From: Acidimicrobiia bacterium
GTDB taxonomy: Bacteria > Actinomycetota > Acidimicrobiia > IMCC26256 > JAMXLJ01
DNA length: 36,783 nt
Direction of reading: 5' to 3'
Assembly (NCBI GenBank): GCA_024281095.1
Contig: JAMXLJ010000167.1
Span: forward strand, 1-36,783
In this document: piece by piece, positions 28,175 through 36,314 of the stretch
Numbering within the stretch: the first letter of the stretch is position 1
Layout: each line of letters begins with the position of its first letter
Program-made: the position numbers and the translations under genes
The notes under the pieces: model-generated
Database searches by the model: none
What the model was told of the DNA's origin: nothing
The model's input: only the letters and a program-made list of their open reading frames with translations

Positions 28175-28203
28175 GGTGAACACCGGGTGAAGCTCGGGTG
28201 CCG
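28175..28203. promoter_or_regulatory. PHO-box-like site 1: three 11-nt-spaced repeats upstream of pstS
   Basis: On the plus strand GGTGAAC (28175), GGTGAAG (28186) and GGTGCCG (28197) recur at exactly 11-nt steps; read toward pstS this is GTTCACC-N4-type repetition. Direct repeats of this form are the binding sites of actinobacterial PhoP and RegX3 regulators. A TACGTT at 28127-28132 (minus strand) may be the pstS -10. A G6/C5 palindrome lies at 28148-28162. Confidence 0.75.
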
Positions 28204-28269: not shown

Positions 28270-28298
28270 GGTAGCGGCCGGGTGAACGAGAGGCGAAC
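28270..28298. promoter_or_regulatory. PHO-box-like site 2: 11-nt-spaced repeats upstream of phoU
   Basis: GGTAGCG (28270), GGTGAAC (28281) and GGCGAAC (28292) again recur at 11-nt steps in the same orientation as site 1. It is 50 bp before the first possible phoU start and could serve phoU, pstS or both. Together the two sites occupy most of the informative part of the 276-bp divergent gap. Confidence 0.65.
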
Positions 28299-28326
28299 AG
28301 TGGGAGCACGCCCCGGCTCCCGCTCG

Positions 28327-29410: not shown

Positions 29411-29513
29411 TCCGCTCGCCTCCCGGCTCGCTCGCTCAGGTCTCCGCTCTTGCCGCCTGCGGCGGCGGGCCGCTCGGCCCCGCTTCCGCTCGCCTCCCGG
29501 CTCGCTCGCTCAG
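29411..29513. repeat. 29-bp direct repeat flanking two small hairpins, overlapping the end of htrA
   Basis: Positions 29411-29439 and 29485-29513 are identical (TCCGCTCGCCTCCCGGCTCG followed by CTCGCTCAG). Between them are GCCGCC-TGC-GGCGGC and GGGCCG-CT-CGGCCC. The right copy contains the htrA stop codon (29510-29512). This may be a dispersed intergenic repeat acting as the htrA terminator. Confidence 0.7.
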
Positions 29514-30988
29514 CCGAGGTTCTCGGGGCGCGCCGCGAGGGTGACGTCGATCGACTTGGTCGTGCCGCCGCGGTTGACCACGAGCGTGATCTTGTCGCCG
29601 GGGCGGTGGCCACGCACGGCGTTGCCGACGTCCTGGGCCTGCTTCACCTGGGTGTCCGCGACCTTGACGATCACGTCGCCCTGTTGCACACCGCCGTTGT
29701 CGGCCGGCGAATTGGGCTCGACGCGCTGCACCACGGCCCCGGTAGTCACCTTGAGGTTCAGCTGGTTCGCGATCGCCGGTGTGACCGTCTGGGTCACGAC
29801 GCCGAGGAAGGCCGGCTGGATGATCTTCCCGGCTCGCAACTCGTCGACGATCGGCTTGGCCTGGTTGACCGCGATCGCGAAGCCGACGTTCTGGGCCTGT
29901 GAGGGATCGGCGATCGCCGTGTTGATGCCGACGACCTGTCCGGCCGAGTTCACGAGTGGCCCGCCGGAGTTGCCGGGGTTGATCGCGGCGTCGGTCTGGA
30001 TCATGTGGTCGAGCGTCGTGTTGATCTGCGTGTCGATCGAGCGGTTGAGCGCGGACACGATGCCGCGCGTCACGCTGGGCTGCCCCGGTAGGGCGAGCGC
30101 ATTCCCGATGGCGATGACCTCGTCGCCGACGACCAACTTGTCGGAGTCGCCCAACACCGCCGCGGTGAGCCCGGTGGCGTCGGTCTTGAGCACCGCGAGG
30201 TCGGCCGAGGGGTCCTGGCCGACCAGCGTCGCCCGTTTGTGCGTGCCGTCGTTGAACGTGACCTCGATGCGGGTGCCCGCCCCGTTGATGACGTGGTTGT
30301 TCGTCACGATGTAGCCGTCGGAGCTGATGACGATCCCCGTGCCGGCGCCGCCGCCCGAGCCCGGGCTCTGCCCGAAGAGGTTGTCGCCGGCGGCCGACCC
30401 TGTGGTGATCGCCACGACGGCAGGCTCCACCTTCTCGAGCACCGCGTGCACGTCGTTCGGGCTCGGGAACGCGGACGTGTTCCGGGCCGCGGCCACCGTA
30501 GGGCTCGGGTTCCCGGACCGGTCGTTGTCGGCGCCGACGTAGACGGCCGCGGAGACGCCCGACGCGACGAGGGCTCCGACGAGGGCTCCGAGCAGCACCT
30601 GACGCAACCCGCCGCCACCGCGCCCGCCGGCCGGCGCCGGGGAGACGGGGGGAGCCCCCCAGGCGCCGGACGGGGGCGTGGCCGCAGCCCAGGAAGGGGG
30701 AGGCGGGGCCGCGTGACCGGGTGAAGCCGCGGGTCCGACCGGTACTGCGAACGCAGCGGCATCGTCTGCGCCGTCCGCCGCGGGCGTGGTCGTGGGGAGC
30801 TCGCCCGTGTCGCCCGCCGGCGCAGTGACGTGCTGGGGTGCGGTCGGCTCGGCACCCGGCTCGGCGGCACCGGGCTCGCCGGCACCGGCCGGGTCGGGCG
30901 CGCCCCACGGCGGCGGGGACGACGGCCCCGGGCGCGCCCACGGGCTCGGCCGCGCCGGCCCCTCGGCTCCCTCGTCGTGCTCGCTCAC
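29510..30988 (-). CDS. htrA: HtrA/DegP-type serine protease, membrane-anchored
   Basis: 492 residues from GTG 30988. A long Pro/Ala/Gly-rich cytoplasmic N-terminus (~1-125) leads to one transmembrane helix (~129-151), a trypsin-like domain with full triad H232 (TNNHVING), D263 (SADLAVLK) and S341 (NPGNSGGPL), and a C-terminal PDZ domain (~400-488). It degrades or refolds damaged proteins outside the membrane. GTG 30988 has GGAGG six nt upstream; the ATG at 31066 lacks a ribosome binding site. An ECF-type promoter-like sequence lies ~120 bp upstream, and the cognate sigma operon is 2 kb away. The DegP-like protein at 8.5 kb is a catalytically dead relative. Confidence 0.95.
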   Translation of the reverse strand: MSEHDEGAEGPARPSPWARPGPSSPPPWGAPDPAGAGEPGAAEPGAEPTAPQHVTAPAGDTGELPTTTPAADGADDAAAFAVPVGPAASPGHAAPPPPSWAAATPPSGAWGAPPVSPAPAGGRGGGGLRQVLLGALVGALVASGVSAAVYVGADNDRSGNPSPTVAAARNTSAFPSPNDVHAVLEKVEPAVVAITTGSAAGDNLFGQSPGSGGGAGTGIVISSDGYIVTNNHVINGAGTRIEVTFNDGTHKRATLVGQDPSADLAVLKTDATGLTAAVLGDSDKLVVGDEVIAIGNALALPGQPSVTRGIVSALNRSIDTQINTTLDHMIQTDAAINPGNSGGPLVNSAGQVVGINTAIADPSQAQNVGFAIAVNQAKPIVDELRAGKIIQPAFLGVVTQTVTPAIANQLNLKVTTGAVVQRVEPNSPADNGGVQQGDVIVKVADTQVKQAQDVGNAVRGHRPGDKITLVVNRGGTTKSIDVTLAARPENLG

Positions 30989-31111
30989 CAGCCACCTCCG
31001 TCGTGGACGCACCGTGCCGCCGCCGGCACCGCCGGGGACTCTGGCCCGACGCTTGGGTCGGACCATCGTCGCGCCCGGTCACAGCGCCTTGATGCCGCAT
31101 ACGGCTCGCTG

Positions 31112-31138
31112 AACGCCCTACGCTGCGGGCCAGGTTCC
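31112..31138 (-). promoter_or_regulatory. ECF-type promoter upstream of htrA (GGAACC-N17-CGTT)
   Basis: On the minus strand GGAACC (31138-31133) and CGTT (31115-31112) are separated by 17 nt, one more than in the other two copies in this region. The transcript would have a ~115-nt leader to GTG 30988. Spacing makes this the weakest of the three. Confidence 0.5.
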
Positions 31139-31164
31139 ACCACGCGCCTGAGGATCAGCTGAGA

Positions 31165-31185
31165 AGCCGGCGAAAACGGCCGGCT
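31165..31185. other. Hairpin between the divergent htrA and whiB promoters
   Basis: AGCCGG (31165-31170) and CCGGCT (31180-31185) pair around a 9-nt A-rich loop; GCTGAGAA is repeated at 31158-31165 and 31183-31190. It lies between the two ECF-like -35 elements, so it could be an operator for both promoters. Confidence 0.4.
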
Positions 31186-31197
31186 GAGAATCCGCCA

Positions 31198-31224
31198 GGG
31201 AACCTACTCGTCGCCTCCGTCGTT
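31198..31224 (+). promoter_or_regulatory. ECF-type promoter for whiB (GGGAACC-N16-CGTT)
   Basis: GGGAACC (31198-31204) and CGTT (31221-31224) are spaced by 16 nt, identical to the site before the sigma operon. The transcript would begin just before the GAAGAGG ribosome binding site of the ATG at 31240. Confidence 0.7.
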
Positions 31225-31239
31225 GGAAGAGGCAACGCC

Positions 31240-31506
31240 ATGGACTTCCCTCTGCCCCCCGACCAAGAACGCGAGCACACCTGGATGCTCGACGCCCGCT
31301 GCCGGGAGTACGACCCCACGTCGTTCTTCCCGTCCGACGGGGTCGGCGTGGAACGGGCACGACGCATCTGCGCCGAATGTCCCGTGCGAGTCGAGTGCCT
31401 CGAGTATGCGCTCGAGTTCCGCATCGACCACGGCGTATGGGGCGGTGCGTCCGAGCGTGAACGCCGCCGTATCCTCCGCTCGCGGCGCGTCGGAAGTCCC
31501 TCGTAG
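31240..31506 (+). CDS. WhiB-family iron-sulfur regulator (copy 1)
   Basis: 88 residues. The four cluster cysteines are C21, C44, C47 and C53 (C-x22-C-x2-C-x5-C), followed by the G-V-W-G-G turn (~65-69) and the basic tail SERERRRILRSRR that contacts DNA. WhiB proteins hold a 4Fe-4S cluster and bind region 4 of the primary sigma factor, linking redox or NO signals to transcription. ATG 31240 has GAAGAGG 8 nt upstream. The ECF-type promoter in front suggests it is induced with envelope stress. It converges on the RseB-like gene. Subfamily not assigned. Confidence 0.95.
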   Translation: MDFPLPPDQEREHTWMLDARCREYDPTSFFPSDGVGVERARRICAECPVRVECLEYALEFRIDHGVWGGASERERRRILRSRRVGSPS

Positions 31507-31547: not shown

Positions 31548-32573
31548 TCACTCCCAGCTGAACGGCGCCAGCACGAAATGCGTCAGGCCCGCGACAACAC
31601 CGCGACCACGGTGCGCGGGCAGCTTGGCGAGCAGTGCCTCCACCGCGGTCGGCCCGGCATCGGTGACGCACGCGTAGACCGCTCGATCGGTGTCCCAGAC
31701 GAAGGTACGCGCGCCGGCACTGTCGTAGACGCGCACGCGATGCCCGTCGAGCGTCGCGTCATGCCCGCCGCTCGGAAGCGCGTCATGGTTGAGCCGGCCG
31801 TGCAACTCGAACACCGACATCCCGTGCAAGCCGTCGGTGTAATACAGCTGCAGGCTGCCGTCCTTCCGGCGGTACGCGTCGACGAGCTCGAAGCCCGCGC
31901 CGACTCGGCGTGGTGCCTGCCACCCACGGCCGAGACTCGCCGGGGAGACTTGTGACGCGCGATCGTGCGCACGTGGCAGCGTGGGCGGCGGCGTCGCCGC
32001 CGGCCGCACGGCGGAGATGGCGACGAACTCCACGGTGCGCACGGTGCGTCCGTGCTCGATCTGCTGGCGGCGCAGCAGCACTCCGGTGTCGCGGTCGAGG
32101 TAGAAGCGCTCGCGCAACGGACCGTGGAGTTGTACCGCTTCGATCACGCGGGTCTGATGGCCCGCCACGACACCGTCGGTCAACGCCGTGAAGCGGTAGT
32201 TCACGGTTGCCGCCGGGCCGGAGTCTGTCGACGCATCGGCACCGAGCGCGACCCAGCCGTCGCTCTCGCGCACGAGCCCTTCGTCGCCGTCGGCCATGAC
32301 GCGTCGCTGCGAGCCGACGACGAGCAGACCATCGTCGTCAGCGACCTTCACCTCCTGTGAGTGGCGCTTCGTGCCGTCGACCCACTCCACCCGCACGGTC
32401 CCCGTGAAGGTCGACTTCGTCACCGCGTCGCGCGCGACGGCCAGCGGGTCGGGTACGGACGGCTCGGGCTCGCGTTGGGTCGCGGCGGAGGCGTGCACGC
32501 CTACACCGGCCGCGACCACGGTCACCGTGACCGCGGCGCACGCCACGGCGACGCGCGTGCTTCGGAACCCCAT
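31548..32573 (-). CDS. RseB/MucB-like sigma-regulatory outer protein
   Basis: 341 residues. A signal-anchor helix (~6-28, VACAAVTVTVVAAGVGV) is followed by a beta-rich exported part. The middle (~40-190: VEWVDGTKRHSQEV, REERFYLD-like RERFYLDRDTGVLLRRQQI) resembles the MucB/RseB N-terminal domain, which has a lipoprotein-carrier (LolA/LppX) fold. RseB senses envelope damage and protects the anti-sigma factor from cleavage. The gene begins 10 nt after the anti-sigma gene in the same operon, which supports the role. Family assignment rests on fold-like motifs and context; length and topology agree. Confidence 0.75.
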   Translation of the reverse strand: MGFRSTRVAVACAAVTVTVVAAGVGVHASAATQREPEPSVPDPLAVARDAVTKSTFTGTVRVEWVDGTKRHSQEVKVADDDGLLVVGSQRRVMADGDEGLVRESDGWVALGADASTDSGPAATVNYRFTALTDGVVAGHQTRVIEAVQLHGPLRERFYLDRDTGVLLRRQQIEHGRTVRTVEFVAISAVRPAATPPPTLPRAHDRASQVSPASLGRGWQAPRRVGAGFELVDAYRRKDGSLQLYYTDGLHGMSVFELHGRLNHDALPSGGHDATLDGHRVRVYDSAGARTFVWDTDRAVYACVTDAGPTAVEALLAKLPAHRGRGVVAGLTHFVLAPFSWE

Positions 32574-32583
32574 CACGTCGCGC

Positions 32584-33015
32584 TCATCGGCGGAACCCGA
32601 TGGGCGCCAGCTGCGTGATGGGATCCTGGCTGAGTGAGGATCGCGTCGCGTGCGAGTCCACGAGCGTCGCAACGGACGGCGACGCGTGATGAGGAGAGGG
32701 CACGAGGAACGCGACCGCCACCACCGCGGCCGCGGCACCGCCCGCAATCCACCCGAGCGGGCCGCCGACTCGGTGGCGCGTCACACGACTCCGGCGCGGG
32801 CCCTCGTCGAGAACCGCCTCCCAGAAACCACTCGGTGGTTCAGGCAGCGGCAACGCGCGTACACGCGCGCGGACGTCGGTGATCTCCGCGAGCACGGCGA
32901 CCCACGCGGCCGACCGTGCCAGCTCCTGTTCCACCGCGGCGCGCTGGACCGGGCTGAGCTCGCCGTCGAGGTAGCCGGACAGCAGGTCTTCGGGGAGCGA
33001 TCCGGGGGCGCTCAT
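32584..33015 (-). CDS. Anti-sigma factor (RseA-like, no zinc motif)
   Basis: 143 residues. The N-terminal helical part (PEDLLSGYLDGELSPVQRAAVEQEL) is the anti-sigma ASD-type start seen in actinobacterial RseA/RskA-like proteins, with LxGYLDGEL-type motif. One transmembrane helix (~88-105, GWIAGGAAAAVVAVAFLV) leads to a short outer tail. There is no Cys, so the H-x3-C-x2-C zinc motif of redox-controlled anti-sigmas is absent; release is more likely by proteolysis. ATG 33015 overlaps the sigma stop (ATGA). It would hold the ECF factor at the membrane. Confidence 0.88.
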   Translation of the reverse strand: MSAPGSLPEDLLSGYLDGELSPVQRAAVEQELARSAAWVAVLAEITDVRARVRALPLPEPPSGFWEAVLDEGPRRSRVTRHRVGGPLGWIAGGAAAAVVAVAFLVPSPHHASPSVATLVDSHATRSSLSQDPITQLAPIGFRR

Positions 33016-33524
33016 CCGGGCACACCTCCTTGCTGCAGCGCCGCTCGCAGCATCCGCCGCCCGCGATGGATCCTCGAACGAACCGTCCCGACCGGCGCCC
33101 CCGTGGCGACCGCGATGTCCTCGTAGGCAAGGTCCGCGACGTCGCACAGCACCACGGCGACCCGGAACTCCTCGGGGAGTGACGACAACGCGGCCTGCAC
33201 GTCGGCGGACAGTTCGGCGCTCGCCTCGTCGGCCGAGGGCGCTGCCGGAAGCACCCGGTCGGGGTCGTCGGGCAGTGCGGTGACAGGCCGGCGGCGGCGC
33301 CGTCGCACCTCGTCGAGGAAGACGTTCGTCACGATCCGGGCCAACCACCCTTCCAGCGATCCCGGCTGGTACGTCTCCAGGCCCTTGCGGACACGGAGCA
33401 GCGCCTCTTGCACGAGATCGGCGGCGTCGTCGCTGTTGCCTGTCAGTCGGTAGGCGACCTGATAGAGGAACCGCCCATGTTCACGGGCGACTTCGTCCCA
33501 GGTCGGTACACCGTCGGATGTCAC
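33012..33524 (-). CDS. ECF RNA polymerase sigma factor, SigE-like
   Basis: 170 residues. Sigma-2 region (~15-75): FLYQVAYRLTGNSDDAADLVQEALLRV, ending WLARIVTNVFLDEVRRRRRR. Sigma-4 region (~105-162): ALSSLPEEFRVAVVLCDVADLAYEDIAVATGAPVGTVRSRIHRGRRMLR. No sigma-3 domain, so it is an ECF factor. GTG 33524 is fixed by the fold and by the promoter GGGAACC-N16-CGTT immediately upstream, which it probably recognises itself. First gene of the operon sigma / anti-sigma / RseB-like. Neighbouring htrA and tatA recall the mycobacterial sigE-rseA-htrA-tatB cluster. Confidence 0.94.
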   Translation of the reverse strand: MTSDGVPTWDEVAREHGRFLYQVAYRLTGNSDDAADLVQEALLRVRKGLETYQPGSLEGWLARIVTNVFLDEVRRRRRRPVTALPDDPDRVLPAAPSADEASAELSADVQAALSSLPEEFRVAVVLCDVADLAYEDIAVATGAPVGTVRSRIHRGRRMLRAALQQGGVPG

Positions 33525-33527
33525 GAC

Positions 33528-33554
33528 AACGTCAGGGGTGCGCAGGAGGTTCCC
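33528..33554 (-). promoter_or_regulatory. ECF-type autoregulatory promoter of the sigma operon (GGGAACC-N16-CGTT)
   Basis: On the minus strand GGGAACC (33554-33548) is followed after 16 nt by CGTT (33531-33528), with GTG 33524 three nt further on, so the mRNA would be nearly leaderless. This matches the SigE/SigH-type consensus GGAAC-N16-18-GTT. Confidence 0.75.
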
Positions 33555-33599: not shown

Positions 33600-33773
33600 C
33601 TACGGCTTTGCCTCGGGTGGATGGGGCTGCTCGCGGGCGCCTTCTTCGAGCCCCTTCTTGAACTCCTTCGACGCCTGACCCATCGAGCGGGCGAGCTTGG
33701 GCAGGCGGGTGCTCCCGAACACGAGGAGCACGACAGCGAGGATGATCAGGAGCTCGGGAACGCCGAGGTTCAT
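33600..33773 (-). CDS. tatA: TatA/TatB-type twin-arginine translocase subunit
   Basis: 57 residues (below the usual length cut-off for ORF calls). The N-terminus MNLGVPELLIILAVVLLVFG is the short transmembrane helix with the Pro-Glu of Tat proteins, then the F-G-x-x-x-L-P hinge (FGSTRLPKL) and the amphipathic helix ARSMGQASKEFKKGLEEG, ending in a Pro-rich tail. TatA multimers form the pore for folded proteins. ATG 33773 has AAAGGG about 5 nt upstream. It is 33 bp after the oxidoreductase gene on the same strand and 75 bp before the sigma operon. TatA is more likely than TatB because of the FGxxxLP hinge and short length. No tatC is nearby. Confidence 0.93.
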   Translation of the reverse strand: MNLGVPELLIILAVVLLVFGSTRLPKLARSMGQASKEFKKGLEEGAREQPHPPEAKP

Positions 33774-35794: not shown

Positions 35795-36127
35795 TCATGC
35801 GGACGCGGCCGCCCGGCGCGCGAGGGCACGCTGACGGCGGAGCCGTCGTCGTTCGCGCTCGGAGAGGCCGCCCCAGATGCCGAACTTCTCGCCGTTGCAC
35901 AAGGCGTACTCGAGGCATTCGAGGCGCACCTCGCAGCCGCCGCAGACTGCCTTGGCCTCGCGCGTCGAGGCCCCCCGCTCGGGGAAGAAGAGGTCGGGGT
36001 CGACGCCGAGGCAGTTGGCGCGCTCCTGCCACCGCCGCTCCCCGTTCTCGCCCGGGCCTCCAGCAGTTCCCAAGGTGACGGGCACAGGGCCCGCGGACAT
36101 CCGGTTGGCGATGAGCATCTCGTGCAT
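35795..36127 (-). CDS. WhiB-family iron-sulfur regulator (copy 2)
   Basis: 110 residues from ATG 36127. Cluster cysteines C39, C62, C65 and C71 (C-x22-C-x2-C-x5-C), an extra C77 just after, the G-I-W-G-G turn (~83-87) and basic tail SERERRRLRRQRALARR. The preceding WQERANCLGVDPDLFFPERG is the entry typical of WhiB2/WhmD-like proteins linked to septation, but the subfamily is inference. Start: GAGGGGGG lies ~7 nt before ATG 36127; longer in-frame starts exist (to 36313) but add an unconserved Arg-rich stretch. A 315-bp non-coding region lies upstream, shared with the divergent macrodomain gene. Confidence 0.93.
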   Translation of the reverse strand: MHEMLIANRMSAGPVPVTLGTAGGPGENGERRWQERANCLGVDPDLFFPERGASTREAKAVCGGCEVRLECLEYALCNGEKFGIWGGLSERERRRLRRQRALARRAAASA

Positions 36128-36202
36128 CGGCCGCCCCCCTCGCTTTCTGACCCGCATGCGCGCGTCGAACTCCTCTCGAAGCACGCCGGCTGTTCGAACG
36201 TC

Positions 36203-36221
36203 CCCGGGCTTGACGCCCGGG
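36203..36221. other. Hairpin in the whiB2 upstream region
   Basis: CCCGGGC (36203-36209) and GCCCGGG (36215-36221) pair around a 5-nt loop, ~80 bp before whiB2. It may be a leader structure or an old terminator. Confidence 0.45.
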
Positions 36222-36314
36222 CACGGCACCGCTGGAATCGGCCGGCGGAAGTGCCCGTCGACCGTTCTCCCCTCATGGGAACTCCATGCCCGTAATTTCG
36301 GCCTTGGAATCACC

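Follow-up and report, generated by a model that had tools for sequence, protein, structure and literature searches.

The intergenic region at positions 31112-31224 of the window, by which we mean the whole stretch of 36,783 nucleotides of Acidimicrobiia DNA that was analysed, is very probably the divergent regulatory region of an autoregulated envelope-stress regulon of the SigE/RseA/RseB type that takes in the genes for an ECF sigma factor, a Wbl protein, HtrA and HtpX. One promoter code, conserved across related uncultivated actinobacteria, appears to be common to the sigma, protease and Wbl genes, and the circuit belongs, as a well-preserved variant, among the stress circuits already known and is no new kind. 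The features of the window on which this reading draws are:

29510..30988, minus strand, htrA, a trypsin-like protease with one PDZ domain and an N-terminal membrane segment
31138..31112, minus strand, ECF-type promoter of htrA, GGAACC-N17-CGTT
31148..31164, plus strand, direct repeat CTGAGG-N5-CTGAGA with an 11-bp period, 9 bp upstream of the 5' end of the htrA -35 element
31198..31224, plus strand, ECF-type promoter of wbl (named 'whiB' in the first-pass annotation), GGGAACC-N16-CGTT, with GGAACC from 31199
31240..31506, plus strand, wbl gene, 88 aa, four cysteines and GVWGG (PF02467, E 3.4e-23)
31548..32573, minus strand, MucB/RseB-family protein, third gene of the sigma operon (profile matches)
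32584..33015, minus strand, anti-sigma factor, overlapping the sigma stop codon (ATGA), one membrane segment
33012..33524, minus strand, ECF sigma factor, closest to SigE of M. tuberculosis (profile and structure-database matches)
33554..33528, minus strand, sigma operon promoter, GGGAACC-N16-CGTT, with GGAACC from 33553
33600..33773, minus strand, tatA/B-like gene directly upstream of the sigma gene, a syntenic marker
35795..36313, minus strand, second wbl gene, the WhiB/WhiB2 ortholog (105 bits to Streptomyces WhiB)

Three ECF-type promoters within 2.4 kb

A pattern search of the window for GGAACC-N15..19-CGTT returned three matches against 0.40 expected (sd 0.59; none of 100 shuffles reached three) and no fourth site anywhere in the window. 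The positions and ECF-type form that the first-pass annotation had given for these sites were thereby confirmed, as were its further observations that the wbl and sigma promoters share the same spacing, that the window holds no other GGAACC with a correctly placed CGTT, and that the sigma factor lies 2 kb from the divergent pair (its start at 33524 is about 2.3 kb off). The genome-wide scan with a control that it had recommended yielded 54 matches in 4.39 Mb compared with 19 for the reversed pattern, so three sites in 2.4 kb form a strong local cluster. All three carry a SigE-type -35 element (GGAAC with C at -31), followed by GGAAC-N17-CGTT spacing at wbl and the sigma gene and N18 at htrA, and the SigE consensus published for actinobacteria from C. 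glutamicum, GGAAC-N17-18-cGTT, is the same (PMC10012870).

Among 58 distinct assembly sites with GGAAC-N16..18-CGTT, 48 fall within predicted genes and are probably chance matches. The ten that do not include the wbl, htrA and sigma-gene sites as well as one 24 nt before htpX. Two further intergenic sites precede a folE-like gene by 41 nt (L153:1502 in G000) and a gene for a 302-aa protein by 27 nt (L170:1502 in G000). Elsewhere in the window, PHO-box-like direct repeats (GGTGAACaccgGGTGAAG; GGTGAACgagaGGCGAAC) are present at 28175-28192 and 28279-28299, upstream of pstS and phoU.

A SigE-like sigma operon that carries its own motif

Read along the minus strand, the locus runs from the tatA/B-like gene through the ECF sigma gene and the overlapping anti-sigma gene to the MucB/RseB-family gene. 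The far best family for the sigma factor is NCBIfam NF007229, the SigE equivalog (E 6.6e-64), at a score of 215 bits that lies below the curated cut-off of 265, and for this reason we describe the protein as SigE-like and do not file it as a SigE equivalog. It also matches PDB entry 9m9d (E 8e-52), and its named relatives at ≥59% identity come from Acidimicrobiia or from Actinomycetota MAGs that are not placed further. Many other ECF factors are encoded in the genome (49 candidates), which weighs against assigning the promoters to this one. The anti-sigma factor, of 143 residues, gives a weak zf-HC2 match (E 1.8e-5) and contains no cysteine at all, so that the HCC zinc motif of ZAS proteins such as RseA is absent from it. 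Taken alone, the window's RseB-like protein falls below the Pfam cut-off; a profile made from 24 aligned family members hits Pseudomonas MucB (6in8) at E 1.1e-15, with PF03888 found in 17 of the 24 members and PF17188 in 10 (E up to 0.05). Because of these MucB and MucB/RseB-domain matches we regard the third gene, for which the first-pass annotation had offered no identity, as encoding an RseB-type envelope protein, the predicted structure of which has a pLDDT of 82.

The motif precedes the sigma gene at 26 of 26 loci, the same loci as those of the wbl survey below, and occurs only once in 215 upstream regions of seven other neighbour genes (phoU, rseB, asig, llm, ftcD, tatA and the second wbl); upstream of the tatA/B-like gene it was found at none of 32 loci. 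No other single result carries as much weight as this internal control, which cannot be accounted for by base composition or relatedness. In the window, CGTT stands 3 nt from the GTG start of the sigma gene (33524-33554), which implies either that the sigma mRNA is leaderless or nearly so, or that the start codon lies further in.

A possible two-input promoter at htrA

From the sequence we propose that htrA begins at GTG 30988, behind GGAGG; the longest open reading frame starts at 31066. Of 34 sigma-positive genomes, 22 have GGAAC-N15..18-CGTT on the htrA side, as do 2 of 11 sigma-negative ones, where 0.7% would be expected. Conservation of the divergent pair is wide on the wbl side and narrower on the htrA side; the absence of the htrA-side motif from a third of the sigma-positive genomes counts against the regulon reading.

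Before htrA there is also a CTGAG-N6-CTGAGA direct repeat that the first-pass annotation had overlooked. Repeats of the form CTGA[AG]-N6-CTGA[AG] were present in 17 of 34 sigma-positive and 6 of 11 sigma-negative genomes (0.07% expected per region), and where repeat and ECF motif occur together the repeat lies 7-10 bp upstream of the -35 element in 14 of 15 genomes, exactly 8 bp in ten of them. An 11-bp direct repeat at such a position is the usual form of an activator site of the OmpR/PhoB family, and the CTGAG repeat, resembling such a site, is a putative operator for an OmpR-family response regulator. This bears on the possibility that htrA is driven mainly by a response regulator with a minor contribution from GGAACC-N17-CGTT, for which the more frequent retention of the repeat than of the ECF motif in sigma-negative genomes (six compared with two of 11) and the direct regulation of pepD/htrA by MprA in M. 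tuberculosis and C. glutamicum (PMC3062566, PMC12113857) both speak. We nevertheless judge it unlikely, because the fixed separation of about 8 bp suggests one composite promoter, and the htrA region may be an example of a two-input promoter that combines a response-regulator box with an ECF -35 element.

The strict repeat occurs in three copies in the genome, one of them just behind an OmpR-type regulator/kinase pair (L211:5264-7335; G000 C75), and the regulator with this adjoining copy is a candidate for acting at the htrA repeat. Three copies of TCTCA, spaced at 11 bp, directly follow the kinase gene of the pair, between convergent genes. Sequences close to the CTGAG repeat stand some 20 nt ahead of MprA-like regulator genes, orthologs of that pair's regulator, at 6 of 30 loci; near-matches also adjoin a second regulator class, and assignment of the repeat to one regulator was dropped. 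In a sister species a CTGAG direct repeat is found about 160 nt before another wbl paralog (G001:C8:63837-63853).

Co-occurrence of the wbl promoter motif with the sigma factor

The wbl gene is convergent to the sigma operon and divergent from htrA, and synteny of the locus is kept through the order. Four cysteines and G[VI]WGG were found in 49 of 51 orthologs of the protein. We searched for GGAAC-N16..18-CGTT up to 220 nt upstream of the wbl start in these 51 orthologs and recovered it in 37 of 38 sigma-positive compared with 5 of 13 sigma-negative genomes; the Fisher value (p = 1.6e-5) ignores shared ancestry, and since the sigma-negative genomes come mostly from one family (f9) it overstates independence. 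Two genomes were scored sigma-positive as the anti-sigma or RseB-like gene runs to a contig edge, and scoring both as negative gives p = 8e-5, a value with the same limitation. One genome, G025, was scored as lacking the motif only because the region searched was short, and does have it. Dinucleotide shuffles of the same regions carry the motif in 0.5% of cases. Across about 40 genomes the wbl promoter consensus is cGGGAACC-N16-CGTT, with usually 7-15 nt between the end of CGTT and the first start codon (15 nt before ATG in the window), and we predict that the wbl and sigma mRNAs have very short leaders or none. The main outcome that the first-pass annotation had named as refuting its reading, a lack of motif conservation in orthologous intergenic regions, did not arise on the wbl side, where the motif is conserved and its presence follows that of the sigma factor.

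At htpX orthologs the motif was likewise associated with the sigma factor, being present in 17 of 22 sigma-positive and none of 7 sigma-negative genomes (p = 5e-4, or 3e-3 with a contig-edge genome scored negative). htpX belongs to the SigE regulon of M. tuberculosis (PMC2851646).

Since five sigma-negative genomes keep the wbl motif, another ECF factor may read it there: G009 and G033 retain the motif and G003, G007 and G013 have GGAACG/GGAACT forms, with no SigE ortholog found in any of the five. Extended to all of these sites, the argument would make them real ECF promoters that are read mainly by a different, SigH/SigR-like factor, the neighbouring sigma factor being minor, in keeping with the finding that SigH of C. 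glutamicum reads every SigE promoter tested (PMC10012870). We consider this quite improbable, given that SigE-absent genomes lose the motif at wbl (8 of 13) and at htpX (7 of 7) and that the sigma gene itself bears it at every one of its 26 loci. Chance matches within a GC-rich intergenic region, which the many sites within predicted genes might bring to mind, can be set aside as scarcely credible against a position and spacing conserved far above the roughly 0.5% expected per region, and for the wbl and sigma promoters a chance origin is refuted by that conservation. The neighbouring SigE-like factor thus remains our preferred reader of the promoters; we regard the motifs, their conservation, their sharing with the sigma gene, their link to sigma presence and the repeat spacing as established by genome comparison.

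A class-restricted Wbl and lineage variants of its promoter

The motif-bearing gene, which had been named whiB, is an Acidimicrobiia-restricted Wbl. It scores 73 bits to Streptomyces WhiB compared with 105 for the second wbl gene of the window, which rules it out as the WhiB/WhiB2 ortholog; that ortholog sits 4.5 kb away and had no ECF motif before it at any of 33 loci. Among 198 genomes across the phylum, every match to the motif-bearing Wbl above 95 bits was in the same class, and the best match outside it reached 87 bits.

Other Acidimicrobiia MAGs keep the sigma-wbl arrangement with a wbl motif that is not GGAAC..CGTT. By a by-eye count, the block GGGAACTTTC-N6-ATCTGGGCGTA precedes wbl in 12 of 17 of them, and no copy of it was seen before their sigma gene. 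In the Acidimicrobiia MAG loci L305-L326 a block of about 35 bp, TTTACGGGAACTTTCCCC...GATCTGGGCGTACTAC, is nearly invariant before wbl and longer than an ordinary ECF promoter; it is without a copy before the sigma gene. A class-wide search for a GGGAACTTT...CGTA block retrieved a single genome in 247, and this variant is therefore confined to a lineage poorly sampled in that set. In one other family GGAACC-N16-CGTC stands before four wbl orthologs, and the -10 element seems to vary by lineage.

Comparison with known systems

The SigE-RseA systems of M. tuberculosis and C. glutamicum resemble that of Acidimicrobiia in having the closest sigma factor, the same promoter consensus and htpX in the regulon. 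The M. tuberculosis sigE neighbourhood also contains htrA and a tat gene, as at the Acidimicrobiia locus, and C. glutamicum has an operon sigE-cseE-tatB (PMC10012870). The Acidimicrobiia differ in having a MucB/RseB-family gene in the operon, a cysteine-free anti-sigma factor and a wbl gene that separates htrA from the sigma operon; moreover, their sigma gene carries the motif, whereas no SigE-type promoter was found at C. glutamicum sigE (PMC10012870).

ECF control of a wbl gene is of an already known kind: S. coelicolor whiB is a target of sigma-E and is induced by vancomycin (PMC6767563). The suggestion that an ECF-driven whiB would be unusual does not hold in view of this precedent, in which an envelope-stress ECF factor similarly drives a Wbl gene, and within its order the supposedly unusual local circuit is the rule. 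In S. coelicolor, however, the target is true WhiB and is unlinked, and sigma-E, which lacks an anti-sigma factor, has a different -10 element, whereas the Acidimicrobiia target is a different, class-restricted Wbl adjoining the sigma operon. The SigR-WblC loop of Streptomyces also joins a Wbl and an ECF factor in one circuit (PMC6282962), but that loop responds to thiol-oxidative or antibiotic stress with WblC as an activator of sigR, while the Acidimicrobiia motif points from sigma to wbl. Control of htrA/pepD by MprAB is comparable in tying an OmpR-family regulator to an HtrA protease and to sigE, and MprA-like regulators are present in the window's genome; the box in the Acidimicrobiia, CTGAG-N6-CTGAGA, is unlike the MprA motif of C. 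glutamicum, TKTTAAGAAM. A literature search on wbl in Acidimicrobiia returned nothing on this circuit.

Proposed regulon

That this particular sigma factor does the reading, what signal activates it, which response regulator takes part and what the Wbl protein does are all inferred. On envelope stress the anti-sigma factor would release the sigma factor, with the MucB/RseB-like protein as the likely envelope sensor alongside it. The sigma holoenzyme would then read GGGAACC-N16-CGTT at its own operon and at wbl, GGAACC-N17-CGTT at htrA, and the htpX promoter, so that HtrA and HtpX could repair or remove damaged envelope proteins. At htrA, an OmpR-family response regulator on the CTGAG repeat just upstream of the -35 element would provide a second input. 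The Wbl protein would relay the signal to further genes, probably by contact with sigma region 4, as is the case for other Wbls (PMC6282962). More speculatively, and in our view doubtfully, the Wbl may serve this sigma factor alone: produced solely while the latter is active, it would bind region 4 of this or the housekeeping sigma factor and, through its iron-sulfur cluster, make the envelope-stress response conditional on redox state or NO. The preserved sigma-wbl pairing is compatible with such a role; binding to sigma region 4 is known for Wbls, a number of wbl genes are neighbours of sigma genes, and there is one Wbl-ECF fusion, WblP (PMC6282962).

What sets the Acidimicrobiia system apart is that its Wbl target is class-restricted and has a fixed place next to the sigma operon, that it includes an RseB-type component, and that htrA probably receives a second input. 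The uncultivated Acidimicrobiia thereby gain a predicted envelope-stress regulon and a testable promoter code, with a Wbl gene kept under an ECF promoter throughout an order. Together with sigma-E and whiB of S. coelicolor, this suggests that the coupling of envelope stress to an iron-sulfur Wbl regulator arose, or was kept, more than once.
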